From IMG/VR virus record IMGVR_UViG_3300036985_003683, positions 23,019 through 87,018 of that record: a DNA stretch of 64,000 bases; one strand, 5' to 3'. The notes under the pieces were generated by a model. It saw nothing but the letters and a program-made list of their open reading frames with translations, made no database searches and was not told the origin of the DNA. Positions 23,251-59,509 of the stretch are shown here, one piece after another. Source of the stretch: a virus. Positions within the stretch are counted from its first letter, which is position 1. Each line of letters starts with the position of its first letter. A program made the translations under genes and the position numbers.

Positions 23251-23383
23251 GTTGTGACTCACTTCTACGATACACCTTGAGAGTGGACATAATTACCACA
23301 AACGCGAAAAGGAACGAAGCCCCCATAAGGAAGAAGCCTCCGTGCACATATAGACTTCCATTTTCGTACGAAAACACATGCAT
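23198..23383 (-). CDS. Small membrane protein between sugar genes
   Basis: A 61-residue protein with one hydrophobic segment (about residues 15-34, GGFFLMGASFLFAFVVIMS) followed by Tyr-Arg-Arg and a polar tail, consistent with a single membrane span. ATG 23383 has GGAG seven bases upstream and follows the epimerase stop by one base. Its end overlaps the RmlD-like gene by about 50 bases. It may anchor a sugar enzyme or act in superinfection exclusion; nothing shows which. Confidence 0.5.
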   Translation of the reverse strand: MHVFSYENGSLYVHGGFFLMGASFLFAFVVIMSTLKVYRRSESQHEDSSTGCARSIGKRHI

Positions 23384-23384
23384 A

Positions 23385-24353: not shown

Positions 24354-24898
24354 TTTGGTCTCACTTCCCAATAGACTCCAGATGTCTTGAACGCATCATA
24401 CGAAATGCGTTCCTCATCTGGCTTGTTACGGTCGTACACTTCTGAACCAGTGCACACCATGATTGTGTTAGGTGTCAGGGACTGCCAGCCGTGCCAGAAC
24501 CCCGGCGGAATGGTCAACCTCTGCATAGGCGCTGCCGACAGGATGAACTGACGTGCTTCACCCTCTGGAGATACGACCCACACACGGGCCTTACCGTTCA
24601 CTATTGTGAAGAAGTCCCACAGTTTCTCGTGTCGATGGAACGCCCGGATGGTCATGGCCTGTTCATTGCGTACAATGTACGTTTGGCCAAAGTTACCAAC
24701 CTGAAGTGGAACTTCCACCCGAGCAGGCGTACCCTCAATCGGAAGGAGTACTGGTCCCTCCTTACGGTGTACGACTGACTCTGCCCTGAAGTATTCCACC
24801 GTGGGTAGATCGTAGTTGTGTACAATCTCAGTCAGATCTCCCCGATCGTCGTGCAATGTTGTCAAAGCCTCAAGGAGAGGCCCGTTCTGCTTAATCAT
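24350..24898 (-). CDS. dTDP-4-dehydrorhamnose 3,5-epimerase-like cupin (RmlC-like)
   Basis: About 182 residues. TIRAFHRHEKLWDFFTIVNG and IPPGFWHGWQSL match the RmlC/sugar 3,5-epimerase core, with the active-site His in the first motif, and the end (YDRNKPDEERISYD) matches the family's C-terminus. The canonical RmlC GLHxQ motif is changed (AFHRHE), so a related ketoisomerase or 3-epimerase is possible. ATG 24898 has GGAG six bases upstream. It starts the RmlC-epimerase-RmlD group. Confidence 0.75.
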   Translation of the reverse strand: MIKQNGPLLEALTTLHDDRGDLTEIVHNYDLPTVEYFRAESVVHRKEGPVLLPIEGTPARVEVPLQVGNFGQTYIVRNEQAMTIRAFHRHEKLWDFFTIVNGKARVWVVSPEGEARQFILSAAPMQRLTIPPGFWHGWQSLTPNTIMVCTGSEVYDRNKPDEERISYDAFKTSGVYWEVRPK

Positions 24899-24928: not shown

Positions 24929-24934
24929 ATTATA
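24929..24934 (-). promoter_or_regulatory. GGTATAAT box on the stop codon of the glycosyltransferase gene
   Basis: Minus-strand TATAAT preceded by GGG, its TAA being the stop of the 24930-27002 gene. It is about 30 bases before the RmlC-like start, leaving a short leader with the GGAG site. Confidence 0.45.
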
Positions 24935-28816: not shown

Positions 28817-28838
28817 CGTTTCACCTCTATAGACATCG

Positions 28839-28911
28839 ATTTAACCACAGTTATCAGCGTTAAAGGCAATAAAGTACCGGCCCCGCTACATAAAGTACCC
28901 GCTACGTAGCC
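28839..28911 (-). promoter_or_regulatory. 73-bp conserved element, copy 1 (putative phage promoter)
   Basis: Minus-strand element beginning GGCTACGTAGCG and ending TTAAAT. It includes TTGCCT (28864-28869), a 19-base spacer and TTAAAT (28839-28844). Another copy at 48679-48751 has exactly the same length, and the plus-strand copy is at 61165-61237. It precedes the methyltransferase-glycosyltransferase gene by 22 bases. An 18-mer core (GCTACATAAAGTACCCGC, plus strand 28885-28902) is identical, inverted, at 61174-61191. Confidence 0.65.
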
Positions 28912-30257
28912 TATGTTCTCCGTGAGCGATCCAGTAGTCTCTGCCCCAGCTCGTTTAGTTCGTCTGTGGAGAACCTCGAATTCTCGGAATACGACAGTGA
29001 ACACATCTTAGTGCTGGAGCTCCCCAACCTAGACTTGTAGACGAGACTGAAGAGCAGGTCCAACTCTGGAAATGCAAGTTGACCACTGTCCAGGTGGACG
29101 TCCAATACGTCTTCGGTTCTGACAAGGAACACCCTAGGTAATGCGTCTAGTGTGTATAAACTGGCGAGCTCCATGGGTGGAGTCTTGTTCAGAGTTATGC
29201 CGTCATAGGGTAACGGTATGTGCAACTCTTCCCACATGTGAGACAGGTCGTCACTGGAGAGATTGAAAGAGTCCAACCAACCCAAGCGGTACATCTTGCT
29301 GGAGACTGATACACTAGGTACTACGAACGAGTCATTGGGGTGGTCGAGTAGGTGACGTAATCCATGTACTAGGAACGACCTGTTGACCTGATCAGAAACG
29401 CGCATCAACATCACTGTGGACCCGGAAGACATACGCATCCCTTCCGTGAACACTGTAGTGGCAGAGCGCGTTCCACCTTCGGACAGTACTACTGGGATCT
29501 GTGTACCTGTCAAGTAGTAGGTGGCTAGCGATGCACCCCCAAACTCCATTTTGGGAGTCAAGTAGGAAAGAACGTTAGGACACTGGGATGTGTTGACTAA
29601 TACCAACTCCACACTTCGTATAAACAACGTCCGTACATGGTCTAGGAACTTACGTAAATAGTCTGGTCCCATCCAACAGTCTACCACTATCGAAGTGGAG
29701 ACAGAATCACGTGTCAGGACTGGCTTCCGCACTATCCTCTCAGGATTGCAGGTGAGAACCAAGCAGTCCCACCCAGTGGTGGATTGAAGCCTCCGCTGCT
29801 GCAACTCGTCACATACCCACCCACCATTTTCGAAAATGCCCTTGTAGAAGGAGGTAGTGCGAGTGATCTCACCACCTACGCCTGGTGAATTGAGTATCAC
29901 TAGCCACTTCTTACAATGTACGCGTGACCACCTTACGAACTCGTTAAGTTCGTCCTCGTCAAAACACCCCAACAGCTTAGACGCTAGTAACACGTCGTAA
30001 GTATCCTCTTCACTGAGGAAGCTACGGAGATGTACGTTTTCTACAACTCGACTGTCCACGGCGAATGGATTCACATCGATACCGTTAGCAACCACAGAGT
30101 GGTCCTCACGAAGATGCTTCACCACCCAACCTAGTCCACACCCAACGTCCAAAACTGAACCTGGGAATAACTCTGCGATCTTGGTTGCGATCATGAACAG
30201 ATGTCCATCGCCTACCAACATTCCCCGAGATTCGCAGTACTCACGATCGTATATCAT
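28911..30257 (-). CDS. Methyltransferase-glycosyltransferase-like chimera
   Basis: 448 residues. Residues 1-172 form a SAM methyltransferase (SVLDVGCGLGWVVKHL at about 34-49) close in style to that of the next gene. The junction at 179-188 (PVLTRDSVST) is followed by a domain of about 260 residues that resembles a degenerate GT2 (SIVVDCWMGPDYLRKFLDH; VELVLVNTS). The junction decapeptide is encoded by a 26-bp sequence also found in the 57258-58430 gene. ATG 30257 forms an ATGA overlap with the giant transferase upstream. Confidence 0.7.
   Translation of the reverse strand: MIYDREYCESRGMLVGDGHLFMIATKIAELFPGSVLDVGCGLGWVVKHLREDHSVVANGIDVNPFAVDSRVVENVHLRSFLSEEDTYDVLLASKLLGCFDEDELNEFVRWSRVHCKKWLVILNSPGVGGEITRTTSFYKGIFENGGWVCDELQQRRLQSTTGWDCLVLTCNPERIVRKPVLTRDSVSTSIVVDCWMGPDYLRKFLDHVRTLFIRSVELVLVNTSQCPNVLSYLTPKMEFGGASLATYYLTGTQIPVVLSEGGTRSATTVFTEGMRMSSGSTVMLMRVSDQVNRSFLVHGLRHLLDHPNDSFVVPSVSVSSKMYRLGWLDSFNLSSDDLSHMWEELHIPLPYDGITLNKTPPMELASLYTLDALPRVFLVRTEDVLDVHLDSGQLAFPELDLLFSLVYKSRLGSSSTKMCSLSYSENSRFSTDELNELGQRLLDRSRRT
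29695..29720 (-). repeat. 26-bp direct repeat, copy 1 (domain-junction linker)
   Basis: The 26 bases are identical to 58189-58214 and read in the same frame, giving PVLTRDSVST in both proteins. In each it lies at a domain boundary. Confidence 0.85.
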
Positions 30258-33200
30258 TGTGTACACACCTTATCTATTCCCATAACCCGCATCACTTCGT
30301 CGTACACTCTGCAGACAGTTAGTCCAATTTGACAGTACAATTGGGGCTGACTACAAGTGCTGTACTCCTTAGGAAAAGGAGGTTTGTGATGACAACCCAG
30401 ACACTCCAGATCTATGGGAACGGAGACTGGGAACAAGAATTCAGAGTCTGCCACTAGTTTTGGATCAGTGGGTCCGAAGATGCATATGGTAGGTACCTTG
30501 ACCCCCACTCCAATATGTAGCCCCACACTATCACTACAAACTACTCCCCGACTGATAGCAGTCAATGCAGCTACCTCGTCCCAAGATCTTCCGAAGAAGG
30601 GTATGCCCATGTCCACACGCTCATCAGCGAGCGAACCCACTTCAACGATTTGGAAGTCCTTACTCAACTTCTGGGTCAACTCTTTCCACCGAGAGAGTGG
30701 CCAACGTCGATTAGCCCAACTAGCTCTCCAATGCACTACCAGCAGATTTGGATGGGCAGAAAACTCGTCACGTATCTTATCCAGAGTTGACTGCTTGGTC
30801 CAATATCCAGGACGCACATAGGGCACACCCGCAAGGCGTGCAACTTGTCTAGGCCTATTCTGCCCTAGGTCCACTTCATATGCGGAATCCAGGTTGATCA
30901 CCAGGTGGTACTCTACTCCAGGTTCTGCGCTGTCTAGTATGTCATCCACCCATGGACAATTCTCCATAATGGCCCCGCATTTTGTCATAAGCACTATGCG
31001 AGAGAGAGGGAATTTCCATCTGAGTGCCTTCAGGGCACCTTCACATGAAAGTAAGTCACCATTGGCACCTCCCCTAACCACCAGAATGCAGTGTCGAACG
31101 AAAGTGCGGGTCGTCAGATAATTGCGCCACCTGTGTAGCATGTACTTGACGTTCTGAGCTTCAGTCTGGTCCATTAACGACCTGATAGGGGCGTTGTTTA
31201 CCCTAGTGATGGACCTCAAATGGTCGATCTTAGCTTCGGGCACTGCCAGTATCTTGTAACCCATCTCACGCAGTCTGAGTGATAGATCTGCGTCTTCACA
31301 TGTAGCGAACTTCAAATGCGCTTCGTCAAAAACTGGATACCTATCCATCACCCAGTGAGGTAGCATGAAGAAGTATCCCTCCAGGTAGTCTAGAGGCCCT
31401 TCACCAGGCCCACCTAACATGGCCTCGTTGAGGTATCCATACTCGGGTACTGGACCTGTCTGAGCCACTAGTGGATCTTTGAAGGGCTCAGACAGAGCTT
31501 CGAACCACCCAGGATGGACAATGATGTCATTATTGGACACCACATAGAACTTGCCCCGAGCGCGCTTGCCCATGGTGTTCATGGGGTAGATGTACCCCCG
31601 GTTGGTCTGTGACTTGAAGATCTTCACTACTGGATGGTTAACGTACTTATCATACAGCAGATGCATATCGGGATCGGTAGATGCGTTGTCCCACACAAAT
31701 ATCTCGCGCAGTATCCCCTCTGTAGTTGAAAGCATGGACTCGATAGCGTTGATAGTCATCTGGGGGTGGTCTACTGCAGTCACAGCGATTGTGAGGTCCA
31801 ACTCGCGAGGTTCAGCTTCTTTCACTGAATCTCCATAGTACACGACCTCTGGAAGATCCACTCGTGGTGCAAAGTCCACGTTGTATCCACTACTGATCCA
31901 GGTCTGTGTACTAGCAACCCAACGTGAAGAGTCCACAGAAATCTTGCGCGATTCCTTGTGGAACACACCACCTACCAACTCTCCGTAGGAGTTGAACATC
32001 TTTGGGACCTGTGCAGAATCACACGCCCACACGTCGGATATCCCAGCGGGAACATCACCCAGTGGCACATCTGTGGAAACTGCCCCTGTACCCTTGCGTA
32101 GGAGTGTTAGCACGTCACTTGGCTTAACTATGACGCGAGTGTCCCACCACACTAGCCTACTAGTGTTAAGTATCACACTGGAGAGCACATTCCAATCGTC
32201 TATGAACTGCACGTTGTGACTCAACCAATCTACTGGATCGGTAAAGCCATACACCACCACTACCACACCTTCGGGGAGGGTCAGGTTCGACAGATTAGTG
32301 TGGAACTGCTTGGGTGTATCCCTCCGCACGGTCAGTACAAGGAGTGTGTCCAATCGCTTCTTGGTAAGTGGACTACGGAACAGGTTCGAAAAGAAGCTTG
32401 CTGAGGGTGCTGGAGCTGGTAGGTTCAAACGTGAGGCGATAGCTCTACAGGCATCTTCGCGTGTAGATGATTTCCTTACTTGCTTCTCATATCGTGGGTC
32501 GTGATCCAGGGGGACGAGCTGTGTGAAGGGCTCTACGTGTGCACATTTTACTCCCCAGTTTATCAGACATGGGTAACCCATTTCCCACAGGTCAGCACAC
32601 AGTGTAATGTCCGTGGCGTAGAAAGACGAAGTGTCATCGCGTTGGGGTCTAACTGCCACCATCTTCAGCAGTCGAGTGCGCCAGAGGGTGCAGGAGAACG
32701 ATACGCCATCCACACGTTGGATCTCTTCTCGCTTAGACACGTACCGGATAGTGGGAGTTCTGCCTTCGAACTTCCAACACATCGTGTTGTAGTCGTGACG
32801 TTCTATCACGTTCCCGGCAGCTGCAGCGGATCCTTCGGATCTGTGGAGAGTCTCATATAAACGCACTAGACAGTCACGGTCAAGCATGACCACGTCGTCT
32901 TCTAGCGTTAATACATACTCAGTATCCACTAAGTGAGTCATTCGACCATAGATTCTGGCTACTGCCTGCACAGTAGAGTATCTATCGGGAGTGGGTGGGG
33001 TGGAGTCTTTGATGTACGCAATAGAAGCATACCCCCCTTGCCCCGCCATAAACCATCGACACAGCGCTGCGAAGGAGTCGTCATTCGAGTTGTCGTACAA
33101 CATCAGATTGACTGGTACTGGGGGCATCTCCAGAGTGGAGAGTGCCGTGAAGAATTCTGCTGCACAATGCCAACGTGCTTGGAGAGGTGCGAAGATCGTG

Positions 33201-33568
33201 ATGCCAGGTTGGAGTTTGATGTACTCGGGATTGGCAGCTGCTGGAGTCACGTACTTGACTCTGAGACCGCTAGGAATGCGCGGTTTCTCATTCGCGATGT
33301 CGCCGATGAACTCCAATAGGGGCTCTAACCAGCGAAGGTTTGCTTCACTACGTCGCACTATGCCTACCCCAGTGGAGCTGGCCTGGACTACGTGTGAGTT
33401 GGGGTTGATCTGATCGTCTACGAAGATATGTCGCAGATGTAGATCGGAAGCGTTCTCGAGTAAACGCTGAATCTGTGGCGGAAAATTTCCCGCAGTATGG
33501 TTTACATTGACTCTGGACGAATGTATGATCTGTCCAGTGTCTTCTTGGTAAATCACTAACAAGGGCAA
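30254..33568 (-). CDS. Triple glycosyltransferase: GT2, GT2, GT9
   Basis: About 1,104 residues with three transferase modules. The first (about 120-350) is GT2-like, with TLEDDVVMLDRD as the metal site. The second (about 600-830) opens LDLTIAVTAVDHPQ and has VSNNDIIVHPGW and CEDADLSLRLREMGY. The third (about 840-1,100) is a GT9 heptosyltransferase: VVRGGANGDLL, VVCSDSVGLHIG and TICIFGPTDP. I start it at TTG 33568, where a perfect AGGAGG lies nine bases upstream; the longer frame would overlap the tail gene by 59 bases. GT9 enzymes usually transfer heptose from ADP-heptose. Confidence 0.82.
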   Translation of the reverse strand: MPLLVIYQEDTGQIIHSSRVNVNHTAGNFPPQIQRLLENASDLHLRHIFVDDQINPNSHVVQASSTGVGIVRRSEANLRWLEPLLEFIGDIANEKPRIPSGLRVKYVTPAAANPEYIKLQPGITIFAPLQARWHCAAEFFTALSTLEMPPVPVNLMLYDNSNDDSFAALCRWFMAGQGGYASIAYIKDSTPPTPDRYSTVQAVARIYGRMTHLVDTEYVLTLEDDVVMLDRDCLVRLYETLHRSEGSAAAAGNVIERHDYNTMCWKFEGRTPTIRYVSKREEIQRVDGVSFSCTLWRTRLLKMVAVRPQRDDTSSFYATDITLCADLWEMGYPCLINWGVKCAHVEPFTQLVPLDHDPRYEKQVRKSSTREDACRAIASRLNLPAPAPSASFFSNLFRSPLTKKRLDTLLVLTVRRDTPKQFHTNLSNLTLPEGVVVVVYGFTDPVDWLSHNVQFIDDWNVLSSVILNTSRLVWWDTRVIVKPSDVLTLLRKGTGAVSTDVPLGDVPAGISDVWACDSAQVPKMFNSYGELVGGVFHKESRKISVDSSRWVASTQTWISSGYNVDFAPRVDLPEVVYYGDSVKEAEPRELDLTIAVTAVDHPQMTINAIESMLSTTEGILREIFVWDNASTDPDMHLLYDKYVNHPVVKIFKSQTNRGYIYPMNTMGKRARGKFYVVSNNDIIVHPGWFEALSEPFKDPLVAQTGPVPEYGYLNEAMLGGPGEGPLDYLEGYFFMLPHWVMDRYPVFDEAHLKFATCEDADLSLRLREMGYKILAVPEAKIDHLRSITRVNNAPIRSLMDQTEAQNVKYMLHRWRNYLTTRTFVRHCILVVRGGANGDLLSCEGALKALRWKFPLSRIVLMTKCGAIMENCPWVDDILDSAEPGVEYHLVINLDSAYEVDLGQNRPRQVARLAGVPYVRPGYWTKQSTLDKIRDEFSAHPNLLVVHWRASWANRRWPLSRWKELTQKLSKDFQIVEVGSLADERVDMGIPFFGRSWDEVAALTAISRGVVCSDSVGLHIGVGVKVPTICIFGPTDPKLVADSEFLFPVSVPIDLECLGCHHKPPFPKEYSTCSQPQLYCQIGLTVCRVYDEVMRVMGIDKVCTQ

Positions 33569-33581
33569 GGGGGCAGTCCTC

Positions 33582-35321
33582 CTAGCGTCGCGCGAATCTC
33601 GATGATCCTCCAACAAGGGGCGGATGGCGTAATTGATCAACGACTCGCGACAACACTAACTGATCGTGTCTTAACATGTATCTACGCTTAAACTCTGCGT
33701 AGGAGGCCACTCGATAGATGTCGTTGGTTAACTGACATTTCATAGTGTCCTCATTGGGGAAAATCTCAATCTGCATCAGTTGGCAATTGATTGCAGACCA
33801 CTTGTTCAAATTGGCCATGTTACCCATCATCAACAGTGAGTAAGTGGTCAAATCGATAGTGTCCAGAGATATGGTAGCTTCGATACGTTCGTCTCCCATA
33901 CGTGCTAGCATAGCGTTGGCTATGGCTTGCATCATCCCAGTATCATCTCTGGGGGGCATGGGCATACTGTACTCTTCACCGCTGTTCTCTTGGTAAGTAG
34001 GATCAACCGAACAATCATAGGCTCCCCCATAATTATACGTACTAATCAGATTATACGTGCTGCTAATTGGATGTGAAGAGTGAATGAGCTTATCGTCGTA
34101 CACCCCTTCTTCACGTATGAGTTGGTAGTTGTCGTAGGCGGTTCCACCCGGACCAGCTATTACTTGGAAGGGAGCTAGATACAGGGTCCACACCTCGATT
34201 ACGTGTCCAGTGAGATCTTGTGAGGTAGTAGCTACTCCAGTGTCCAGATTCCAATCAGCGAAGTCCGCGTGACAGGGTACGCCATCTACAACTAAGATGG
34301 GTCCTAGAAGTCCGTTAGTTAGAGTCCCTTCCCAGAAGGGAGTATACGATTGAGGGTCGTACACAATCCAACTCATGCCAGGACTACCCTCGCCGTCGGC
34401 CCAGTGCGGAACCATGGTGGCGGGTGTCAATGAACCCTGAGACACTGGTATCAATTCAACGATCTTGCCTCTGCCCTCCACTATGATCCTAGTCTTGGCG
34501 CTGGATATGTTCAATTTCATACTGCTATCTGTGCACAGCGCATCTTGACCAGAGGCAGTGGCAGTAGTAGTGATATGCTCGGCGGGTTTCCCAAAGTAGA
34601 AGTTCACTGCAGTGCTTGCTGTGAAATCGTGCACTACCAATGTGGGATTATTGGGGTCTGCGGGGTCGATGTATATGCCGTGGTGACCCATCTGTTCTAC
34701 CAGATTCTGCATGTACGTCCAGAATCTCTGACCCACTACACGGGTCTCACTCAATTGGAGTGATAGTCCTAGAAGAGACGCAGCATCGTAAGACTTCAAC
34801 ACAGAAACGGGCATCCATGGATTCTGCACTGATGATGAAGAGGGATGGTGCAATGGTATAGCACTTCCAGCAGCCGGAATCCCAATAGCGTGTTCCAGGA
34901 TGTCAACCATAATCTGCCCCACCGTCCACAGTGCCCCCAGAGAGCTAGGGGAGGTGTAATCGGGTAGATTGTCGATGTTGTACTTGTGCTCTATGGAGCT
35001 ATTCCACTTGATCAGATGGCGGTCAGCCATCGCTTCCAACCCCAACGCATCATACGTGATACCCTCGGTACGTACTCCTCTCGGAGTGTTCACCTCGAGA
35101 GCGCCTCGGAACACTAGAGTTGCAAAATTGTCCCGAGAAATCCATATCTCGTTGTTGTTGGTGAGGAGATCTAATCCGACGTCGTGCTTACCTGGAAAGA
35201 ACAACTGGCACTTACGTGGAAAGGCATAACCCCAAGAGATGGACTTGATATCCACACCTTCCACTATAGTGCCAGCAGCACCCCCTACCTTAACTAGCCA
35301 TTCTCCAGTTGTCAGTCCCAT
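33582..35321 (-). CDS. Probable tail hub/minor tail protein
   Basis: 579 residues, third gene after the tape measure protein in transcription order, so likely part of the tail tip or hub. The N-terminus (SWGYAFPRKCQLFFPG; RDNFATLVFRGAL) has the beta-rich look of phage tail hub proteins that begin with an assembly domain. There are no transmembrane segments. The ATG at 35321 has no ribosome site; TATAAT is only five bases upstream. The C-terminus is basic (SSRFARR) and its stop lies in the next gene's AGGAGG site. Confidence 0.6.
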   Translation of the reverse strand: MGLTTGEWLVKVGGAAGTIVEGVDIKSISWGYAFPRKCQLFFPGKHDVGLDLLTNNNEIWISRDNFATLVFRGALEVNTPRGVRTEGITYDALGLEAMADRHLIKWNSSIEHKYNIDNLPDYTSPSSLGALWTVGQIMVDILEHAIGIPAAGSAIPLHHPSSSSVQNPWMPVSVLKSYDAASLLGLSLQLSETRVVGQRFWTYMQNLVEQMGHHGIYIDPADPNNPTLVVHDFTASTAVNFYFGKPAEHITTTATASGQDALCTDSSMKLNISSAKTRIIVEGRGKIVELIPVSQGSLTPATMVPHWADGEGSPGMSWIVYDPQSYTPFWEGTLTNGLLGPILVVDGVPCHADFADWNLDTGVATTSQDLTGHVIEVWTLYLAPFQVIAGPGGTAYDNYQLIREEGVYDDKLIHSSHPISSTYNLISTYNYGGAYDCSVDPTYQENSGEEYSMPMPPRDDTGMMQAIANAMLARMGDERIEATISLDTIDLTTYSLLMMGNMANLNKWSAINCQLMQIEIFPNEDTMKCQLTNDIYRVASYAEFKRRYMLRHDQLVLSRVVDQLRHPPLVGGSSRFARR

Positions 35322-48678: not shown

Positions 48679-48751
48679 TTTTAACCTTAGATAACACCAT
48701 TAAATGCAATAGAGTGACTACCCAGCGGCAACAATTGTACGCTACGTAGCC
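48679..48751 (-). promoter_or_regulatory. 73-bp conserved element, copy 2
   Basis: Starts GGCTACGTAGCG (same as copy 1) and ends TTAAAA, with TTGCAT 19 bases upstream (48704-48709). Length is identical to copy 1. The AAGG ribosome site of the next gene lies within its last bases, and ATG follows two bases later. If TTAAAA were a -10 box, the transcript would start inside the gene. So the element may be a different type of promoter or a regulatory site. Confidence 0.6.
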
Positions 48752-50001
48752 CCAATAATCTCAAATTCTGGGAGAGGGAAGACCAACTTGCCGCCGTTCT
48801 CCAAGTAATCGCGCTCTCGCGTTACAAACTCGTCACGGAAGTGCCAGGGTAGAACTAGCATGTAATCTGGATTGTCCTTACGCGCTTGTTCCTCACTGAT
48901 GATCTTGATACCAGTCCCCACCATCTTCCTCCCCACCTTAGATGGGTTACGCTCTACTGCTCGAGAGATGAGTGGAAAGCCTACCTGGGCCCACTGTAGC
49001 AGTATGGATCCCTTAGTAGATGCTCCGTAAGCGTATACAGGCTTACCAGCTTCGAGACACTCGTTCAGAAACACGCGTAAACGTTCCCGAATGGCATAGC
49101 CCCTTGAAGCGAACTCCTTGTAGATATCCACTTCATCGAGACCTAGGTATTCTTCATACGCGCGTAGTCCCTCCAGGTATGCTCTGGAGAAAATGTCGAA
49201 CTTAACTACAGGAGCCTTCTTGATCACACACAGGAGTGTCCCTGCGTTGCTGGATCCCATCTCCACATGCGTGATCTCGAGGCCCGCCCGTCCCAGCATC
49301 CTCTCAAACGACATGAGAGAAAGATGTGTGAGGTGTTCGTGTCCGATGGAGTCAAACGCGTTGTTCTTCATCATAGAGGGGAGGTACGTGAACTCGCACA
49401 CAAACACGCCATCGTCAGCTAAACACTCCGCCACGTCCTGTAGGAACTTGATGGGGTATGGCATGTGGTACACCACAGCGCATGCTGTGATGATCTTCGC
49501 GGGTCGCTGTACGTACGTGTGATAGTGTTCAGCGTCGAAGCAACAAGCGAAATGTTCACTCACTCCCCTTCGAGCCTCATCTTGCAGATTGAGAGCGGGA
49601 TCGTACCCCACAGTAACTACGTGCTGATGCCCCAACGCTGGATACTGGCGGAGTAACGTACCATCGTTACTCGCAATATCCAACACCACATCGTGAGGGG
49701 AAACTCCACCGGCATGCTTAACTGCCAGGTTGGCTACGTATTTGAGATGTTCGCACATTGTGGAATTGATACCAGAGACGTACCAATACTTGGAGTACAG
49801 CGAACTCCTATCCACAGTTTGAAGGTTCTGCAGTAGTTTGGAATCAGCGTTCCACACTACCGTAATAGGTGCCTTGGGAAAGTCTACGTCCGACTCATCT
49901 GGATCTGGATAATCATTGAGAAAGATGTCCCCCAAATCCATAATGGGGATCAGTTCTCCCTCACCACCAGCACGGTCACTTCGAATGACATCACATCGCA
50001 T
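48742..50001 (-). CDS. Sugar C-methyltransferase-like protein
   Basis: 419 residues resembling the three-part family of NDP-hexose C-methyltransferases. SAM motif is VVLDIASNDGTLLRQYP (about 105-121), AYGASTKGSILLQWA matches the later domain, and the C-terminus reads DYMLVLPWHFRDEFV and FPLPEFEI. The N-terminal zinc domain of that family is present only in a changed form without clear Cys pairs. It overlaps the dehydratase-like gene and fits a route to a branched or deoxy sugar. Its stop lies in the 73-bp element. Confidence 0.78.
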   Translation of the reverse strand: MRCDVIRSDRAGGEGELIPIMDLGDIFLNDYPDPDESDVDFPKAPITVVWNADSKLLQNLQTVDRSSLYSKYWYVSGINSTMCEHLKYVANLAVKHAGGVSPHDVVLDIASNDGTLLRQYPALGHQHVVTVGYDPALNLQDEARRGVSEHFACCFDAEHYHTYVQRPAKIITACAVVYHMPYPIKFLQDVAECLADDGVFVCEFTYLPSMMKNNAFDSIGHEHLTHLSLMSFERMLGRAGLEITHVEMGSSNAGTLLCVIKKAPVVKFDIFSRAYLEGLRAYEEYLGLDEVDIYKEFASRGYAIRERLRVFLNECLEAGKPVYAYGASTKGSILLQWAQVGFPLISRAVERNPSKVGRKMVGTGIKIISEEQARKDNPDYMLVLPWHFRDEFVTRERDYLENGGKLVFPLPEFEIIGAT

Positions 50002-50962
50002 GGGAATTCCTCAACCTGTTCAACCAGAAATCGTACACCTTACGAGCAGCTTCGAAAGGCGTGTGAAGGGGTTTCCACTTTGTAGCTGTTTCGAACTTGT
50101 CACCCAATCCCGCCTGGAGAGTTATGTCCCCTGGTGTGGGGGTACTCTTTATCTCGAATGACACTTCCGCATAGAGGGATAGGTCACTGATAACTGCCCT
50201 CAGGGAGACTGCGTCATTGCCAGTTATGTTGAAGATAGTGTCTTCGAAGTTGTCACCACGTGGGACATCTGGTAGGCGACTGTAAGCTACCACTACGTCA
50301 TCGATGTCCAAGAGTGTCCGGAAATTGTCTATGTTCCTACACTTCAACACCGTGTCTTGTACGCCCAACTTCATACGTGCGATTTGCCATGCGAATTGTG
50401 AGATGGCAGCGTCAGTGTATTGACGCTCTCCAGTGGTGGTGAACAGTCTAGTAACTGGTACTCTCATACCCTTGTTCCAGTAGATCCTGCCCACTCCTTC
50501 CATCGCCGTCTTGGAAACAGCATAAGGGTTGTTACCCCTCAACTCGTGAGTTTCACTGATCTGTGGTACAGACGTGGGGCCATAGACGTCTGAGCTGGAA
50601 GCCAGGTGTACCCCAGGGACCTCAAACTGATGTGCAGCGGCCAGGACGTTATGGGAACCGATCACGTTGATGTTATAGGTCGATGCTGGATTGGCAATTG
50701 AGTGACCTATGTGTGCCTGTGCAGCGAGGTGGAAAACGAACTGGGGCTCAATCCAACCCATATGTGCGAAGACTGAGTTACCGTCAGTGATATCCACTTC
50801 ACCCAGGCGCAGTTCCTTGAAGATGCTCTCTCCCAGAGTTTCTCGCACTTCATCACTGGATCTGTGGAATCCCCACCCATGTACCTCATGTCCCAATTCT
50901 ACCAAACACTGTGCGAGGTGCTTCCCCACAAAACCCGTAATACCTGTGACAAGAACCTTCAC
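49991..50962 (-). CDS. Sugar-nucleotide dehydratase/epimerase, GDP-mannose 4,6-dehydratase-like
   Basis: 323-residue extended SDR: KVLVTGITGFVGKHL (GxxGxxG), LASSSDVYGP and NPYAVSKTAME (YxxxK). Pattern resembles GDP-mannose 4,6-dehydratase and relatives; the substrate cannot be told. GTG 50962 has GGAGGAA six bases upstream and overlaps the kinase gene as GTGA. It may feed a keto sugar to the C-methyltransferase next to it. Confidence 0.85.
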   Translation of the reverse strand: MKVLVTGITGFVGKHLAQCLVELGHEVHGWGFHRSSDEVRETLGESIFKELRLGEVDITDGNSVFAHMGWIEPQFVFHLAAQAHIGHSIANPASTYNINVIGSHNVLAAAHQFEVPGVHLASSSDVYGPTSVPQISETHELRGNNPYAVSKTAMEGVGRIYWNKGMRVPVTRLFTTTGERQYTDAAISQFAWQIARMKLGVQDTVLKCRNIDNFRTLLDIDDVVVAYSRLPDVPRGDNFEDTIFNITGNDAVSLRAVISDLSLYAEVSFEIKSTPTPGDITLQAGLGDKFETATKWKPLHTPFEAARKVYDFWLNRLRNSHAM

Positions 50963-51906
50963 GAAACTTCCTCCAAAGTGTCTAACAACTCCAAAACGTT
51001 AGTACGCGTGACCCCCTGATGAGTGCCCTGCATGGTGACACTACAAGCACCCACAGCATTACCCAGACTAGCCGCTGTGACTACTCTGAGGGGAGTAGGT
51101 AGACTCTTGACAAGGCTGCTACACAGGCCCATAGCTATTCCTGCCACTGTGGCGTCTCCAGCTCCCACAGCATCCACACACTTAACAGGCCAACCTGGGA
51201 TAGTGATACGTTGATTGTCTATCCAGACTTGCACTCCCTTACCACCCAACGTAACTATGAGGGGTGCAACGTCTGCCCAGGTGTCTAGTGAACTCACTTC
51301 AGCTACGTTGGGCTTTATCACATTGCACTGTACGTATTTGAGGGGCTCATCGCCCTTAGGGTCTACGAGTACTTCCCCCAACTCACACAGAGTAGCTACC
51401 ACCTTGGGAGAGATCACTCCCTTCAAGTAGTCTGATATGATCCAGTAGTCTATGGAGGGGGCGTGGTGTTTCAGCAGTTTGAGGAAACGTCTGCGGACCC
51501 CTCGTAAGAGGGGCTCGCGCGATTCACGATCAAAACGCGTATACGAGTCATTGTACAACACTCGAGTCTTGACAGTAGTCCTCCGTGTCGAATCCTCCAG
51601 CAACCTAGTGTGTACCCTCTTCTCCCTACAGGATGCCTGCAGAGCCCTACCGTAGTGATCGCGTCCCACTACGCCGAAAAGGTACGCATTAGCTCCTAGG
51701 GAGGCCAGGTGGTTAGCCACATTAGCTGCACCTCCCGCTGAGACTTCTTCCCTAGTCACATCACATATATCCATGGGGGTACCAAATTCCATAGTGGACC
51801 GGTACTTCTCTCCATGGAACCACTCATCCAACATAACGTCTCCCACGACACCAATGTTAGGTGTGCCAAGGGAGTTCACTATGTCCTTCAGTGTGTGAGT
51901 CAGCAT
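50959..51906 (-). CDS. PfkB-family sugar kinase, HldE/RfaE domain I-like
   Basis: 315 residues. GVVGDVMLDEWFHGE, VSAGGAANVANHLASLGA and CVDAVGAGDATVAGIAMG (anion-hole Asp) show a ribokinase-fold kinase; the match is best to the heptose 7-phosphate kinase half of HldE. The other half (domain II-like) is encoded at 8488-9024. No isomerase or phosphatase for the pathway was seen, so host enzymes would be needed. ATG 51906 overlaps the GT9 gene stop. Confidence 0.82.
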   Translation of the reverse strand: MLTHTLKDIVNSLGTPNIGVVGDVMLDEWFHGEKYRSTMEFGTPMDICDVTREEVSAGGAANVANHLASLGANAYLFGVVGRDHYGRALQASCREKRVHTRLLEDSTRRTTVKTRVLYNDSYTRFDRESREPLLRGVRRRFLKLLKHHAPSIDYWIISDYLKGVISPKVVATLCELGEVLVDPKGDEPLKYVQCNVIKPNVAEVSSLDTWADVAPLIVTLGGKGVQVWIDNQRITIPGWPVKCVDAVGAGDATVAGIAMGLCSSLVKSLPTPLRVVTAASLGNAVGACSVTMQGTHQGVTRTNVLELLDTLEEVS

Positions 51907-52994
51907 ATACGCTCCACTGAATCAGACTTCCTGAAGTCGCCAACACTCCCAGATTTCTGTACCTTCTCGAGGTTGGGGAGGTCCACCCGAGGGTCAGTGA
52001 AGTAGAAGAGGGAACTGCTCCCTGATGAGAGTGCTCGTGCCTTATCCACGTATAGATCCCTCTTCACGAAGGTCTGGTAGTGTGTCATCACCACCTTAGC
52101 CACCTCCTCGGGAGGGACACTAGCTAGGCACCACGGATGACCCTGTGGTTCACGTCGGCACCAATGCTTTCGTAGGGATATTCCAAAACACGGGAAAGTG
52201 TGTTCGCACTCTTTTCCCTGAACGTGAGTATTCCACACGTACGTAGACAGCGGGTAGTGTTTGAGATACAGACGTGGGTCAGTGGGTCCAAACAGCCCCA
52301 CAGAGGGAGTCTTGACAGCTGCGGATAAGTGTTGCAAACTACTATCTGGACCAACAACAACTCCAGCGAGTTGCAATAGGATGGCCAATTCGCGTAATGG
52401 CCAATTGATCGCTGCAAATGTTCCCATGGTAGGTATCTCTCCGTGGTGCACCACTACTACGGGAATACTCCGCTGGAGTTCTGTCACTAGGGCAGCTGTG
52501 TGAGCGTAGTCCTTCTTGGACTCTGCTGATTGGTACTGCACCACACAGAACTTGAAGGGAGATAGACCTGCTGAGGCTAGCCAACCTATCACAGTTTCGC
52601 GTTCTCGTGACGTGGAGTGCCAACGTGGACTCATGTCGGTAGGCATGAAGTCCACGTACTTACACCAAGTCTCGATTCTACTCTCAGTCAGTGCGTAATC
52701 CGTCTCCAACTGATGAGCCATCTCGGGGCCATCCAATTTGAGATGGATGTCGTTATCTCGTTCGAGATATCCGATCATCTCGTCCCACGGATCTGGCCAC
52801 AGGACCTCATCCGCAGCTGCATCTGGGAACTTACTACGTGTTTGGTCGTAGAGCAGCGTGAAGTAGGGATCATCCGTAGCCCATGTGATATGTGCATCCG
52901 GATACCGATGACGTACAGCTCTTACTGCAACTTCGCAGCAGATCTGATCGCCCAAACCACCCCTATGACGCGAGACGAGAATTCGGCGTTGCAT
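51900..52994 (-). CDS. GT9 family heptosyltransferase-like protein
   Basis: 364 residues. RILVSRHRGGLGDQIC begins the GT9 fold, and VVGPDSSLQHLSAAV with SVGLFGPTDPRLY gives the nucleotide-sugar site. A Cys-rich segment (CEHTFPCFG, CRREP, HPWCLA) might bind metal and is not typical of the family. GT9 members transfer heptose or similar sugars. Next to the kinase gene, matching an NDP-heptose route. ATG 52994. Confidence 0.82.
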   Translation of the reverse strand: MQRRILVSRHRGGLGDQICCEVAVRAVRHRYPDAHITWATDDPYFTLLYDQTRSKFPDAAADEVLWPDPWDEMIGYLERDNDIHLKLDGPEMAHQLETDYALTESRIETWCKYVDFMPTDMSPRWHSTSRERETVIGWLASAGLSPFKFCVVQYQSAESKKDYAHTAALVTELQRSIPVVVVHHGEIPTMGTFAAINWPLRELAILLQLAGVVVGPDSSLQHLSAAVKTPSVGLFGPTDPRLYLKHYPLSTYVWNTHVQGKECEHTFPCFGISLRKHWCRREPQGHPWCLASVPPEEVAKVVMTHYQTFVKRDLYVDKARALSSGSSSLFYFTDPRVDLPNLEKVQKSGSVGDFRKSDSVERIC

Positions 52995-53548: not shown

Positions 53549-54559
53549 TTACGGTGTGACGTCTGCGTAAATGACTGCGCCTGGGATAGGCATCACTGGC
53601 AAACGTGCGTTCTTGTAGTACAGTGTCACACCCGTTGGGCTGTCCTGTACTCGGCTCCACATCACTGGTCCCTGAAGGTCCATAACGTCCGAGCGATCGG
53701 AGTTTGGAACTACAACAGTACCACGCTGCATACGAATCCATTCAGGACTGAAGTCCGGAAGGATGAACAGCTTGTCGTTTCCGATAAACGGAGTGTCGAA
53801 GCGTTCAGTAGCACCTTCCTGTGCGTAGTGATGATCCAGAACAATCCAGTTCAGGCCGTGGAAGCGTGAGAGGTTGCCCGTCTCAGCAATCTGAATACCT
53901 ACAGCTGTCTGACCGATCAGATTCTGGATGTAGGTGTTGCGGATCAGGTAGTTCATCACGCCCTGATTACAAACTGCCCACTTAGGCTCCATGCCCGTAT
54001 CCTTGCGGATAATGCGCTTCCATTCAGTCAAGTCATCCAACACATTCGTACTGGTCGTCGCCCATGAGACTGACGCGGTTGGCTTGTGACTTGCAGGAAT
54101 ACCGTAATCGATCACAACGGCCTGACCGTTGATCTTGATCGAAAGCGAACCTGTAAGAGCCATCGCCACCAGGTACTCGTCCAGATACGCACCGAAGCGT
54201 CTCTGAATGGATGCCTGTTCGCGAACGATATACTCGCGCCCTGCAACGGCTCGGCGGGTTCCACCCACTTGACGCAGCTGAGCAAGGATTCCCGGATCAA
54301 GCGAACTGAACTTGAACGTGACAGGCATCTTCTGCGAACGGGTCCCGTATGTCCCCATCCGAACAGGCTGAGCCTCTCCAGAATTCGTCGTGAAGTCAGT
54401 ATCGATTTCGATGGCTGGCTTCTCAATATCCCACTGTGCGATGTTGCCCTCGATTGGCTCATCAGTGACCTGATTGGCAAACCAGAAATTCGGAAATCGA
54501 ATGGTTTGAACAGTTCGAGTCAGTTGCTGATAACCGAGGACCGATTGCAAATCGGCCAT
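53549..54559 (-). CDS. Major capsid protein, lambda gpE-like
   Basis: 336 residues. Segments RRFGAYLDEYLVAMALTG and VVIDYGIPASH fit the HK97-fold capsid proteins of the lambda gpE family. It follows the protease and decoration genes and precedes a hairpin, as usual for highly expressed capsid genes. Ends in a TxP-rich tail. ATG 54559. Confidence 0.88.
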   Translation of the reverse strand: MADLQSVLGYQQLTRTVQTIRFPNFWFANQVTDEPIEGNIAQWDIEKPAIEIDTDFTTNSGEAQPVRMGTYGTRSQKMPVTFKFSSLDPGILAQLRQVGGTRRAVAGREYIVREQASIQRRFGAYLDEYLVAMALTGSLSIKINGQAVVIDYGIPASHKPTASVSWATTSTNVLDDLTEWKRIIRKDTGMEPKWAVCNQGVMNYLIRNTYIQNLIGQTAVGIQIAETGNLSRFHGLNWIVLDHHYAQEGATERFDTPFIGNDKLFILPDFSPEWIRMQRGTVVVPNSDRSDVMDLQGPVMWSRVQDSPTGVTLYYKNARLPVMPIPGAVIYADVTP

Positions 54560-55125: not shown

Positions 55126-56736
55126 TTACTGAGGGCGCGAAACGAACAGTCCAGTACGTGGATCCTGAACAACTGAATCCATGTGGAACTGAGGAACGGC
55201 CTTCTTGATGATGGAATCGAGTTCGTCGAATTCCTTCTTCTGGTCGTCGTTGTTCTGCTGATCGAGAACAACATGGTTGTGATCATTGGTCTGGCGAGTC
55301 GTTGAGACAGTGTGTCCCTCAGGCAAGCTTTCAATGATGGACAACTGATGTTCAACGCGATCTGCCCAAGAGTCCCACTCCTGGCCAACTGAAGTCTCAT
55401 TCGAGAACTGCAGTGCTTCCGTCTTTGGCAACATCTTGTCGTATGCCGCCTTGTTCATTCGTCCAGACTTCATCGCTGCCTCAGTGCGCTGAGCGATGTT
55501 GCTCAGACGGCTGCGGTTGCGATCCAGAAGCAGTCCGTGATTCTGCGCACGGAGTGCAACGAACTCTGGAGACGAAGTAATGTCAAAGGCTGGGAAGGTT
55601 GACTTGCCCTTACCTTTGCCCTTACCTTCGCCTTCGTCGTCTTCTTCTTCGCCGTCCTTGGTCGGCATAGGCTTGGCGAATTCAATTGCCTGCACCTTGT
55701 CGAACCAATTTTCAGTAGTCAGCGAACCTGTTTCGAGACTGAACTTCGCTTCCAATGAACGAAGTTGTGGACCCGTCAATAACATATCAGACCCCTTCTC
55801 CCGTAAGAGTAATTGACCCCTGTCAAAAGCCTTGCCAGTCAACTCAGTCAAAGCAGGATCGTTATCTGACTGATGTGCCATACCAAAATGGAGAACGCGA
55901 AATGCTCCCTCCAAAGTGTCATTAGCCAGCCAATACTCCTCCACTGATGAAATTGACCGCTGTCTTTCCTCGGGAGTCCCGAATGAAAGAGCGGCACAAA
56001 CATCGACCCACGCTGGATCGTTCAAAATCGTCCGTGCAGCACCAATTTCCAATCCCTTGGAAAGTTTATCTTCAGAACGTGGAGCGGTCTGCATCAGGTC
56101 TTGGACCAGATCCAACAACTGCTTACGATCCAAGACATATCCATTGTAGTCAGTACCCTCAGTAGGGACGTCCGCGACCATATCCAGATAAACAGCTGCG
56201 ACTGCCTCACCCGCTTGATCGAAAGCAACAAAGTCACTCTGTCCTGGGATCACTGCGTAGTTGGTGAGTGCTACGTGTTCAACGCATTCTCCAAATTCCG
56301 CCACCGTACCATCAGGCATAGAGTGTTTTACATTCGGGTGAATGGAAACTGACACTCCCTTGATTGTAGTGTTGATCCTTGAAGAGTCTTCCCCTCGGGG
56401 AATAGCCTGCAATGTGAACAACGCATACTTACCGTCGGGCTTTTGTCGAACTTCCATCTCCTGAACGAATCCCGCGTTCTGTTCTGGTGTGTAAGTGTGA
56501 CCGTAAGGTACTGGAACGTTGATGTTGTGAGGCTTCTGCTTGTTGTAGAAGTTGTCAACCCAACCCTGCATTCTGTCTTTGGTCACATTCAGAGTGAAGC
56601 CCCTGACAGGATGCTTCCACACTCCCTGTGGAATGGATTCTTTCCAAAACAGGTCGAAAGCCTTAGCCTCCCCTTCGGGGGGAGCCTCTATGTCAAAGGT
56701 AGACTGGACCGTGTTGAAAATAAGAGCCTGACGCAT
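55126..56736 (-). CDS. Capsid maturation protease with scaffold region (Mu gpI-like)
   Basis: 536 residues. The first half resembles Mu gpI/prohead protease: VPYGHTYTPEQNAGFV, IKGVSVSIHPNVK and EHVALTNYAVIPG (residues near the active site). A hinge DGEEEDDEGEGKGKGKGK separates it from a helical second half that may be the scaffolding part. The order protease, decoration, capsid is that of many siphoviruses. A TAGAAT box and GGAGG precede ATG 56736. No terminase or portal is seen upstream. Confidence 0.8.
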   Translation of the reverse strand: MRQALIFNTVQSTFDIEAPPEGEAKAFDLFWKESIPQGVWKHPVRGFTLNVTKDRMQGWVDNFYNKQKPHNINVPVPYGHTYTPEQNAGFVQEMEVRQKPDGKYALFTLQAIPRGEDSSRINTTIKGVSVSIHPNVKHSMPDGTVAEFGECVEHVALTNYAVIPGQSDFVAFDQAGEAVAAVYLDMVADVPTEGTDYNGYVLDRKQLLDLVQDLMQTAPRSEDKLSKGLEIGAARTILNDPAWVDVCAALSFGTPEERQRSISSVEEYWLANDTLEGAFRVLHFGMAHQSDNDPALTELTGKAFDRGQLLLREKGSDMLLTGPQLRSLEAKFSLETGSLTTENWFDKVQAIEFAKPMPTKDGEEEDDEGEGKGKGKGKSTFPAFDITSSPEFVALRAQNHGLLLDRNRSRLSNIAQRTEAAMKSGRMNKAAYDKMLPKTEALQFSNETSVGQEWDSWADRVEHQLSIIESLPEGHTVSTTRQTNDHNHVVLDQQNNDDQKKEFDELDSIIKKAVPQFHMDSVVQDPRTGLFVSRPQ

Positions 56737-56808: not shown

Positions 56809-57258
56809 TTAAGAGGGGGATTCCACTGTGATAACACTACTGGCGTGATTGACCTTAATGTCCTGAAACCCCGTCTGAGTCAACTCGCACACTTCGTTCA
56901 CTACCTGCTTACGCTTCAGGTTGGTGTTACGAATGTTGATAGCTTGCAGACCCACAGCTGCCAGTTGTAGGAGCTGATCCTGAGGCATACCCGCGAGTGA
57001 CGATGTGTCGTATTCTCCCATCTTCCCTTGACGCAGCGCTGATTCGTAACCCCAGATTTCTGCGTTGATGGCTTGGAGGGAAGCGAAGTATCCCATCAAG
57101 TCAACTCCCTTGGGTCCCCAATACGACAAGAGACCCCTATACACTCGCTCCAACTCAGTAGCTTCACGAGCGGCTTCTGGGTAGTGCTTAGCTTTGAGTT
57201 GGGCAATGGAAAGTCGATCCAGTAGATCAGCAACAGCGACGAGCATGGCAGTACTCAC
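56809..57258 (-). CDS. Hypothetical helical protein before the protease
   Basis: 149 residues, mainly helices. DLLDRLSIAQLKAKH and INAEIWGYESALRQG form two patterns that faintly recall short LPS-linked or phage families of the DUF6165 type; not conclusive. It ends 52 bases before the promoter box of the protease gene and its start touches the previous stop. Role unknown. Confidence 0.5.
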   Translation of the reverse strand: MSTAMLVAVADLLDRLSIAQLKAKHYPEAAREATELERVYRGLLSYWGPKGVDLMGYFASLQAINAEIWGYESALRQGKMGEYDTSSLAGMPQDQLLQLAAVGLQAINIRNTNLKRKQVVNEVCELTQTGFQDIKVNHASSVITVESPS

Positions 57259-58430
57259 TATGTACGAGTGTAGAGGTAAACGTCACCAAAGGAAGTCGTA
57301 GGTAATCCGGGCAGGGAGTGGAAGGGGGAAGCAACTCTGGGAATACGTTTCAACTTGGGAGCTAACTTCTCCAACAGAGGTGGATACAGGTATACAGTGG
57401 CGGCTGTGATACCATAGTCGTAAGGTTCGAATTCTAACACGTCTCCGGTAATGATCTGGATCTTATGTTGCAGTCCAGCCTCCTTTACGCGTTGTCGTGC
57501 CTTGGTAGCGATCGCAGGATCAATCTCGACACCCACAGCAGTGCACCCATAAGTCTCAACAGCTTGGATCAATATGCGAGCGTCGCCACAACCCAAATCC
57601 GCCAGCACGTCATTCTCGTCCAACTTGAGGACGCTCAACATGGCAGTGATAACTTCTGGAGGTGTAGGAGCTACTGCCCTGGAGACATCCTCTACCTTGG
57701 GCGCAACAACTGGAGCGGCTATGGGCTGAGCCTTGATCAAACTAACCTGTCTACGCCACTCAGCTTGGTCTGCCCTGATCGTTGCACACATGTCACATCT
57801 ACGACTAGAGCAACCCCCGTACGTCTCCAGATTTATAGTCCCATATTGTGGATAGTGTCTTATGGGCGAAGGAAGTGCTGGAGCAGCTACAACTACCTGC
57901 GCTACTGGCCGTGGTGTGAAGGCAGTTATCAATGTGGAAGCACTAGTGTATCCCACCCACTCGTGCAATGTCTTTCCTGTCTCGTCTTTTATTCTGAAAG
58001 TGGGAACCTTTAGAACGGTAGGGTCGCGGTGGACAGTCCTGTCTACCTTGGAATAACCTATCCCCGCAGCTTGTACCTTGGGCAACTCACTGTTCTCCCA
58101 ATTCACACATACTCCACAATAGGGAGTCGTACTCATTTCGAGATAGGTGAACGACTTGGGACTTGTGGAGAGAGTCGGTGGGGGCAGTGTGGAGACAGAA
58201 TCACGTGTCAGGACGGGCTCTACCTCGCGGAACTCACTTTCAGACGACTTGAGTGACTCTTTCAACTTCTCCAGGTCTGCCCTCAGCTTCTCGATCTCTT
58301 CGCGAGAATCAGGGAGGAGCGCCTTCGAACTTGAAAAGGTCACAGACCCCGGAGTGCTCGTAGTGGTAATGCTCTGTGCATACAGGGCTGTATGCATGAG
58401 TAACAAACAAAAGGCAGTCGCGTATCTCAA
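57258..58430 (-). CDS. Exported thioredoxin-methyltransferase chimera
   Basis: 390 residues. Residues 1-19 are a likely signal peptide (AFCLLLMHTALYAQS). A coiled coil (about 42-70) leads to a linker at 72-81 (PVLTRDSVST), a thioredoxin-like domain (96-175) with CxxC at 105-108 (YCGVC), a Cys-rich insert (GGCSSRRCDMC) and a DOT1-like SAM methyltransferase (about 255-390, LADLGCGDARI at 276-286). Methyltransferases need cytoplasmic SAM, so export is puzzling. Starts at TTG 58430 with GGGGA eight bases upstream. Host envelope modification or virion protein are possible. Confidence 0.6.
   Translation of the reverse strand: MRYATAFCLLLMHTALYAQSITTTSTPGSVTFSSSKALLPDSREEIEKLRADLEKLKESLKSSESEFREVEPVLTRDSVSTLPPPTLSTSPKSFTYLEMSTTPYCGVCVNWENSELPKVQAAGIGYSKVDRTVHRDPTVLKVPTFRIKDETGKTLHEWVGYTSASTLITAFTPRPVAQVVVAAPALPSPIRHYPQYGTINLETYGGCSSRRCDMCATIRADQAEWRRQVSLIKAQPIAAPVVAPKVEDVSRAVAPTPPEVITAMLSVLKLDENDVLADLGCGDARILIQAVETYGCTAVGVEIDPAIATKARQRVKEAGLQHKIQIITGDVLEFEPYDYGITAATVYLYPPLLEKLAPKLKRIPRVASPFHSLPGLPTTSFGDVYLYTRT
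58189..58214 (-). repeat. 26-bp direct repeat, copy 2 (domain-junction linker)
   Basis: Same 26 bases as 29695-29720, same frame, at the junction of the coiled coil and the thioredoxin-like domain. Confidence 0.85.
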
Positions 58431-58432
58431 GA

Positions 58433-59509
58433 CTATGTCCCCTTCAACTTACGAATTTCACTCACACACCACTGCATGGTGACTTCGTTGACGATGTTTC
58501 GAACTTCCAAATCGCGTACGCGTTTTTCCAACGTATCTGGGACAGGGTTGGGGTTAGGGTTAGGTGTCCCACCACCTGGAATGGGTACAGGTACTCCGCT
58601 GTAGAGACTTCGCAGTCTAGGTCTCGAAGGATCGTTAGGTGGCCATTGGCCAACTGGATTCCCCTGAGTCATTGAGGGATTCATGATTCCCCCGTTCGTG
58701 TGCATGAGGCCCATATTGTGACCGCCCTCGTGCAACAACAGTGCTGAGATCTGCTGCTCCATGACTGGGTCAGTATTGCCCCCAGTGTAGGTAGCTAGGA
58801 GTTTCAGCCAGATCTTACTGCCACAGCTCTCGCTCTGTCCAACGATGGCTAGCCCAATCCATCCAGACGAAGACTGGACGAAGGTGAGCTCACTATTGAT
58901 GTTGCTGGTCCACGTTTCACCAGTAAGAAGGTCTTTCCCATCCATACCAATGAAGCGCATCAACAACCCGATCTCGCAGTTCGCCTTTTGGACGTTCTGC
59001 ATGATCTTCTTCCACAAGTGTGCGTACTTGGGATTCATCCCTGCTGGGTTGACCCGAATTGCCATACAGTGGTAATTAACCGCTCCATGACAATTTGGCC
59101 ATCCGCCGGACGCGATAGCCTCCTCGGTACCCTTCTGCATCTTTTCGACCACAGCCTGGACGTTGGGATCCTCGAACGCACACTCCGTTCCTGGAGGAGG
59201 CAAGTAGTCTGGGATAGGGCAACGGTCTGATTCAACCATTGCTGCCATTGCAGGATCTTCAGCGTCGCCATCAAAGGAAGGTGGACGACCGTGGTGAACC
59301 AAACTCAACTTGGTGTACGCAGTTGAGTCCATCTTGGCCAAAGAGATCATAGCCTGCACGACTACTGGATCACTCGGCTTCAGATTGGCCAGATCATTGA
59401 ATGAAATGTTGGATCCCTCTGGATTGTCGGGAGACCAAAAATGACCATACTCCCACGCAACACGAATTGCAAATTGGGAGAGGGTCTCGTTTGGCTTACG
59501 TGATGGCAC
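58433..59509 (-). CDS. Metzincin-type zinc metallopeptidase
   Basis: 358 residues. The zinc site is HEGGHNMGLMH (H260, E261, H264, H270), followed by a Met-turn in GGIMNPSM (M276), the metzincin pattern. The N-terminal 200 residues are unknown. No signal peptide is seen, so it is cytoplasmic or part of the virion. A Pro-rich linker with PNPNPNP and a helical tail end the protein. It could cut host envelope or phage proteins. GTG 59509 has GGGAG upstream. Confidence 0.75.
   Translation of the reverse strand: MPSRKPNETLSQFAIRVAWEYGHFWSPDNPEGSNISFNDLANLKPSDPVVVQAMISLAKMDSTAYTKLSLVHHGRPPSFDGDAEDPAMAAMVESDRCPIPDYLPPPGTECAFEDPNVQAVVEKMQKGTEEAIASGGWPNCHGAVNYHCMAIRVNPAGMNPKYAHLWKKIMQNVQKANCEIGLLMRFIGMDGKDLLTGETWTSNINSELTFVQSSSGWIGLAIVGQSESCGSKIWLKLLATYTGGNTDPVMEQQISALLLHEGGHNMGLMHTNGGIMNPSMTQGNPVGQWPPNDPSRPRLRSLYSGVPVPIPGGGTPNPNPNPVPDTLEKRVRDLEVRNIVNEVTMQWCVSEIRKLKGT

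Follow-up and report, generated by a model that had tools for sequence, protein, structure and literature searches.

Results

A phage-encoded, predicted exported protein with thioredoxin-like and methyltransferase modules

We found that a viral genome encodes, in one chain, an N-terminal signal peptide, a short coiled coil, a thioredoxin-like domain, a conserved cysteine motif and a class I SAM methyltransferase (Table 1). The gene lies in a stretch of 64,000 nucleotides (the window), which covers 23019-87018 in a virus record of 87,018 bases and includes genes for the capsid, a tape-measure protein, DNA polymerase and RNR. A first-pass annotation of the window had proposed this combination of modules in a single chain, and our analysis confirmed it. 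The architecture, the export signal, the family relationship of the methyltransferase and the presence of the gene in a cassette with a protease were all established computationally. The combination of thioredoxin-like, cysteine and methyltransferase modules is real and conserved and, as far as we searched, undescribed in phages; a literature search for planctomycete phages that encode exported methyltransferases or thioredoxins returned nothing relevant.

Table 1. Features of the exported protein and its neighbours (window coordinates)
Feature	Position	Strand	Details and basis
Exported thioredoxin-like/CxMC/methyltransferase protein	57258..58430	-	390 aa, TTG start
Ribosome-binding site AAGGGG for the TTG start	58439..58444	-	Sequence reading
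Predicted signal peptide, residues 1-18 (MRYATAFCLLLMHTALYA)	58377..58430	-	Hydropathy rule; signal peptides in relatives
Short coiled coil, residues ~43-70 (EEIEKLRADLEKLKESLKSSESEFREVE)	58221..58304	-	By eye; helix in low-confidence single-sequence model
Thioredoxin-like domain, residues ~92-171 (CGVC 105-108, likely cis-Pro in VPTF)	57918..58157	-	Alignment-based model; domains of L110 and L101
Conserved Cys motif region, residues ~195-228 (GTINLETYGGCSSRRCDMCATIRADQAEWRR)	57747..57848	-	Alignments A5 and A6; CxMC in most viral relatives
Class I SAM methyltransferase domain, residues 255-390 (DLGCGDARI, VGVEIDP)	57261..57668	-	Pfam, PDB, model
Metzincin-type metalloprotease (HEGGHNMGLMH), directly upstream	58433..59509	-	Reprolysin_2 2.7e-4, below cut-off; homologues
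Second signal-peptide protein of the cassette, 222 aa	59520..60188	-	Signal-peptide rule; genes in counterpart position
Small cassette protein, 134 aa	60202..60606	-	Gene order; no family match
Next gene, 149 aa	56809..57258	-	No family above cut-off
Head-region gene	55126..56736	-	Like L093 10464-11471 (32% over 152 aa, 2e-12)
Major capsid protein (Phage_cap_E)	53549..54559	-	Family match

The TTG start lies 2 nt past the stop of the upstream gene and is preceded, 9-14 nt upstream, by AAGGGG, while the later in-frame starts (TTG 58406, ATG 58397 and GTG 58343) do not have a comparable ribosome site. A later start that removes the hydrophobic N-terminus, the objection raised in the first-pass annotation, was considered and rejected on the position of the ribosome site, found at the TTG only, and on the signal peptides kept by homologues. 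The N-terminus, MRYATAFCLLLMHTALYA followed by QS, has Arg2, a hydrophobic core and, where cleavage is likely, a small residue; by rule, it shows the positive n-region, hydrophobic core and small residues before the cleavage site that characterize Sec signals. The protein therefore probably carries a Sec-type signal peptide that is cleaved and does not act as a membrane anchor, and the predicted mature form is ~40.5 kDa. A membrane-anchored enzyme, as had earlier been suggested, is thus not indicated for the window protein, though its relative in L086 looks like a lipoprotein.

The N-terminus could instead be an uncleaved anchor, or translation could begin later, leaving the methyltransferase in the cytoplasm. 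SAM itself is cytoplasmic, and FAM173B, a distant homologue of the archaeal lysine methyltransferase aKMT, is membrane-anchored (PMC9006661). Nevertheless, of the possible starts only the TTG, which keeps the signal peptide in the product, has a good ribosome site. Signal peptides (lipoprotein types among them) are conserved, and for such an N-terminus an anchored form whose soluble part stays inside would be an unexpected topology, so that we consider a cytoplasmic enzyme quite improbable.

Domain structure and nearest characterized proteins

The coiled coil is a brief heptad-like run, judged by eye only. No significant Pfam or PDB match was obtained with the thioredoxin-like segment of the window protein itself. 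AlphaFold with a 33-row alignment (mean pLDDT 84.7) predicted strands and helices in the thioredoxin-type order (strand-helix-strand, two strands, helix), with CGVC where the first helix starts, and a predicted cis-Pro; a fold search with the model did not list the thioredoxin-like domain separately. A full-length AlphaFold model from the sequence alone was unusable (pLDDT 34), and an alignment that included the C-terminal thioredoxin of L110 was discarded because the L110 row was misplaced. In a pairwise alignment, however, the segment matched the L110 thioredoxin with 29% identity over 78 aa, and this L110 copy matched Pfam Thioredoxin (1.7e-11) and many PDB thioredoxins, while the L101 copy also matched thioredoxins. 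Residues ~92-171 are modelled as a thioredoxin-like fold, which differs from thioredoxin in being short and divergent (~80 aa), fused to a methyltransferase, and N-terminal in the window protein but C-terminal in L110.

What had been described as a Cys-rich insert proved to be a conserved motif, (W/Y)GxI(D/N)LETY...CxMCxxIR; the window version, GTINLETY..CSSRRCDMC, is kept in L086, L101 and L103 in the alignments. A different cysteine cluster, CxC(G/N)G(T/S)..GDG....CxCxxxCxC, is found near the N-terminus of two relatives (L086 ORF 6900-8567 and L110 ORF 5581-6711) and is a possible metal site.

The methyltransferase part matched Pfam Methyltransf_25 (9.8e-8, above the family cut-off), and Pfam, PDB and the model concur on a Rossmann-type fold with motif I (DxGxGD). 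The best PDB match was a Salinibacter ruber methyltransferase (5bxy; 1.7e-21, TM by target 0.80), which is a 158-residue chain without fused domains and is an RNA methyltransferase by its depositors' label. The nearest characterized enzymes were aKMT (8e-14 by sequence), an archaeal broad-specificity protein-lysine methyltransferase (PDB 5fa8, 5fad, 5jwj), and the FAM173/ATPSc-KMT family. In its fold, too, the protein resembles aKMT (TM by target 0.75, 31% identity), and SAM motif I and the acidic post-I residue are present in the window protein. Since the window protein scored 57.9 bits against NCBIfam NF041081, below the equivalog cut-off of 200, its methyltransferase may at most work like aKMT, from which it also differs in being exported and fused to thioredoxin-like and cysteine modules.

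The modules are combined and rearranged in other viruses

Viral relatives were found by alignment-based scans of viral contigs. Single-protein scans of the viral contigs with the whole protein, its N-terminal half or the capsid protein gave no matches, and no relative was present among INPHARED phages at 1e-5 (whole protein) or E=1 (N-terminal half). The module set of the window protein was also detected in four viral contigs (L086, L101, L103 and L110), at 33-42% identity. L101 shows 37% identity over residues 72-387 and has SWCGPC in its thioredoxin copy, and L103 has SWCRNC in a weak thioredoxin portion. In L086 the order is lipoprotein signal, extra CxC cluster, coiled coil, thioredoxin-like domain, CxMC and methyltransferase; in L110 it is signal, CxC cluster, CxMC, methyltransferase and a C-terminal thioredoxin.

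About 10 further viral loci encode a signal peptide and a methyltransferase without a thioredoxin, most of them with the CxMC motif. Signal peptide, CxMC and methyltransferase occur together in L111, L087, L088, L090, L092, L095 and L097, and L091, L093 and L094 have the signal peptide and methyltransferase; in L091 and L093 a separate gene for an exported CGMC protein directly precedes the methyltransferase gene. No signal peptide was visible in L099, and L100 is truncated. Since orders and fusions differ between viral loci, the modules have been shuffled, fused and split among viruses.

The window was taken from a metagenome-derived virus record, and this is the one point that would suggest a chance or assembly artefact behind the fusion. 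Because four other viral contigs combine the same modules at 33-42% identity, the fusion is not a chance join, and we regard an artefact as scarcely credible.

Export signals are a property of the methyltransferase family

SAM is thought to be restricted to the cytoplasm, and the signal peptide on a SAM enzyme had been flagged as unexpected. The paradox is real, but the window protein is no anomaly within its family. Among the 80 nearest chromosomal relatives, which span >10 phyla, 73 had export-type N-termini by a rule-based classification (51 Sec, 14 lipoprotein and 8 Tat); the other seven fit no class by rule, and some of these look exported by eye. With a stricter signal rule, signal peptides were assigned to 46/53 methyltransferase ORFs and to 88/318 other ORFs of the same loci (p=2e-16). 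Signal peptides are also conserved in viral relatives. On this sequence evidence, the methyltransferase belongs to a widespread exported bacterial family, and export is inherited by its viral members.

The bacterial proteins (for example, Leptolyngbya WP_017292073) share with the viral ones a signal peptide or lipobox followed by PTPxxVVxxML..DLGxGDGRI, but differ in being chromosomal or plasmid-borne, mostly single-domain, and without thioredoxin or CxMC. They are annotated merely as 'class I SAM-dependent methyltransferase', and we found no paper describing bacterial exported class I methyltransferases as a family. Tat-like signals (MHRRDFLAGL, MNRRTFIKLG) are seen in the Pseudomonadota relatives L013, L017, L029, L044, L066 and L072, and less clearly in L055 and L067. 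In Tat-type relatives, a folded SAM-bound enzyme could be exported.

The earlier suggestion of a host-derived envelope protein holds in part. The protein is an exported chimera whose methyltransferase half comes from a bacterial, probably planctomycete, exported family. The N-terminal half had no match in 294 Planctomycetota genomes, so the thioredoxin and CxMC part is without a detected chromosomal source; a search of 294 Planctomycetota genomes with the fusion alignment recovered methyltransferase regions only, and its weaker matches, most of them probably unrelated methyltransferases, were left aside.

Phylogeny and likely hosts

In a tree built on 157 columns, the window protein formed a clade with L101, L103, L086, L110 and L111 (support 97), and the viral methyltransferases fell into a set (support 96) that also holds seven bacterial rows, five from Planctomycetota and one each from Acidobacteriota and Verrucomicrobiota. 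Of 392 Planctomycetota genomes sampled, one contained the metzincin family of the window. It lies there on a 34.9-kb contig (L145) that also has a signal-peptide gene in the same position and terminase-like genes, and is probably a provirus. The tree and this one contig suggest that the hosts are likely Planctomycetota.

Elsewhere in the window, 9362-12001 (minus strand) encodes a DNA polymerase A whose N-terminal domain is of the uracil-DNA-glycosylase superfamily. Many sugar-nucleotide epimerases, glycosyltransferases and methyltransferases are encoded at 22423-24371, 24930-33640 and 48742-52994 (minus strand), an extensive glycan-modification set for a phage.

A cassette of predicted exported proteins with differing proteases

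A protease lies zero to two genes upstream of the exported methyltransferase in 8 of the 13 viral loci with legible upstream DNA (L092 and L101 are at contig ends). Metzincins accompany the methyltransferase in the window, L091, L093 and L111; the window enzyme is related to those of L093 (39%, 1e-46) and L091 (31%, 2e-31), and L111 has another metzincin. Papain-like proteases precede the methyltransferase in L103 (Pfam C1, 2.3e-5), L086 and L110, the last two being related to each other (2e-28) and having Cys/His/NSWG motifs, and a subtilase (3e-29) is found two genes upstream in L088. These three types have unrelated folds. No recognized protease was seen near the methyltransferase in L087, L090, L094, L095 and L097.

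A signal-peptide gene at the place of the second cassette protein of the window is also present in L093, L103, L088 and L145, and the small cassette protein is possibly, by gene order, the counterpart of L103 6701-7045 and L093 5159-5425. Small TM genes occur in or next to the cassettes, with weak, non-significant PHROG matches to holin (0.034, in L110 only) and Rz-spanin (0.031). No lysozyme or amidase family was found among the window proteins scanned, a subset of the genes, with the left 23 kb taken as ORFs. Only three genes of the contig encode convincing signal peptides, two in the cassette and one at the left contig end. At that end, L084 3-281 (minus strand) encodes a small Cys-rich signal-peptide protein (CSSGSC...CETGCC), which, in a circularly permuted genome, would possibly belong to the same set of exported genes.

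The cassette of L093 is contiguous and lies between portal and capsid genes, and L093 10464-11471, the counterpart of the window head-region gene, likewise follows its cassette. L093 8497-10236 encodes a Mu F-like head protein, whose C-terminal stretch matches the ATLF domain (9e-6, just under cut-off). The left end of the window's record carries terminase-like genes and a portal-like gene, so named for its similarity to phage portals. Since the contig ends do not overlap, a position between portal and capsid genes is only inferred for the window, whereas it is seen directly in L093.

This position, which the window protein would share if its genome were circularly permuted, could indicate a virion component delivered to the periplasm at entry, as the first-pass annotation had suggested, with a signal peptide that is vestigial or serves export or anchoring during assembly; protease and thiol enzymes might then open the envelope at entry. 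However, the cassette lies beside non-head genes in L103, L086, L088 and L110, and a virion protein of a tailed phage would not be expected to carry a Sec signal peptide. We therefore consider a virion component improbable, and favour an envelope-acting cassette because of the recurrent protease neighbours and the small TM genes in relatives.

Alternatively, the protein may be accessory (a moron), an exported enzyme of host origin that is made during infection to alter the host surface and has no part in lysis, with receptor masking, superinfection exclusion or periplasmic protein repair as proposed roles. The clear origin of the methyltransferase half in a bacterial exported family, the several exported proteins in the cassette and the related protease cassette on the provirus-like planctomycete contig fit such a role. 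On the other hand, recurring proteases of three unrelated folds exceed the needs of a surface-modification enzyme, and its location among late structural genes, seen in the window, L093 and L111, also argues against it. This explanation is possible but rather unlikely.

Discussion

Taken together, we tentatively favour, at somewhat less than an even chance, a late exported cassette that acts on the host envelope through a protease and a thiol-redox/methyltransferase protein, possibly with a role in lysis. We infer the compartment of action, the disulfide target, the late timing, the lysis role, the source of SAM and the host. The Sec-exported protein would act in the host envelope alongside the co-made protease and the other exported proteins. 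Its thioredoxin-like module may reduce or rearrange disulfides of Cys-rich envelope proteins, allowing the co-encoded protease to cut, and the resulting breakdown or remodelling of the envelope would help planctomycete hosts to release particles. Drawn from the exported aKMT-like family of bacteria, the methyltransferase might methylate envelope proteins, with SAM reaching the periplasm once the inner membrane is permeabilized. The full form of this proposal, a reductive-proteolytic release system in which the thioredoxin-like module unlocks a disulfide-stabilized envelope, an exchangeable protease cuts it and the methyltransferase uses SAM that is freed or exported in bound form, is speculative and, as a whole, doubtful.

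In several relatives, the order of small TM gene(s), signal-peptide protein, hydrolase and exported protein resembles that of phage lysis cassettes (holin/endolysin/spanin), but the hydrolase here is a protease and not a muralytic enzyme. Planctomycetes have lysozyme-sensitive peptidoglycan (PMC4432640); the notion of a protein-only wall therefore no longer holds, and proteolysis by itself may be insufficient for their lysis. Leakage through a holin is also no general answer to the SAM paradox, since chromosomal relatives are exported without phage lysis.

A SAM methyltransferase family with export signals occurs in many bacterial phyla in spite of the presumed confinement of SAM, and phages have captured it, fused it to thiol-redox modules and set it beside proteases. 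The small size of this gene set makes the role of an exported SAM enzyme, and the source of its SAM, testable. The cassette suggests how planctomycete phages may handle an unusual envelope, and reductive-proteolytic release, if true, would for the first time give access to the function of a widespread exported SAM methyltransferase family.
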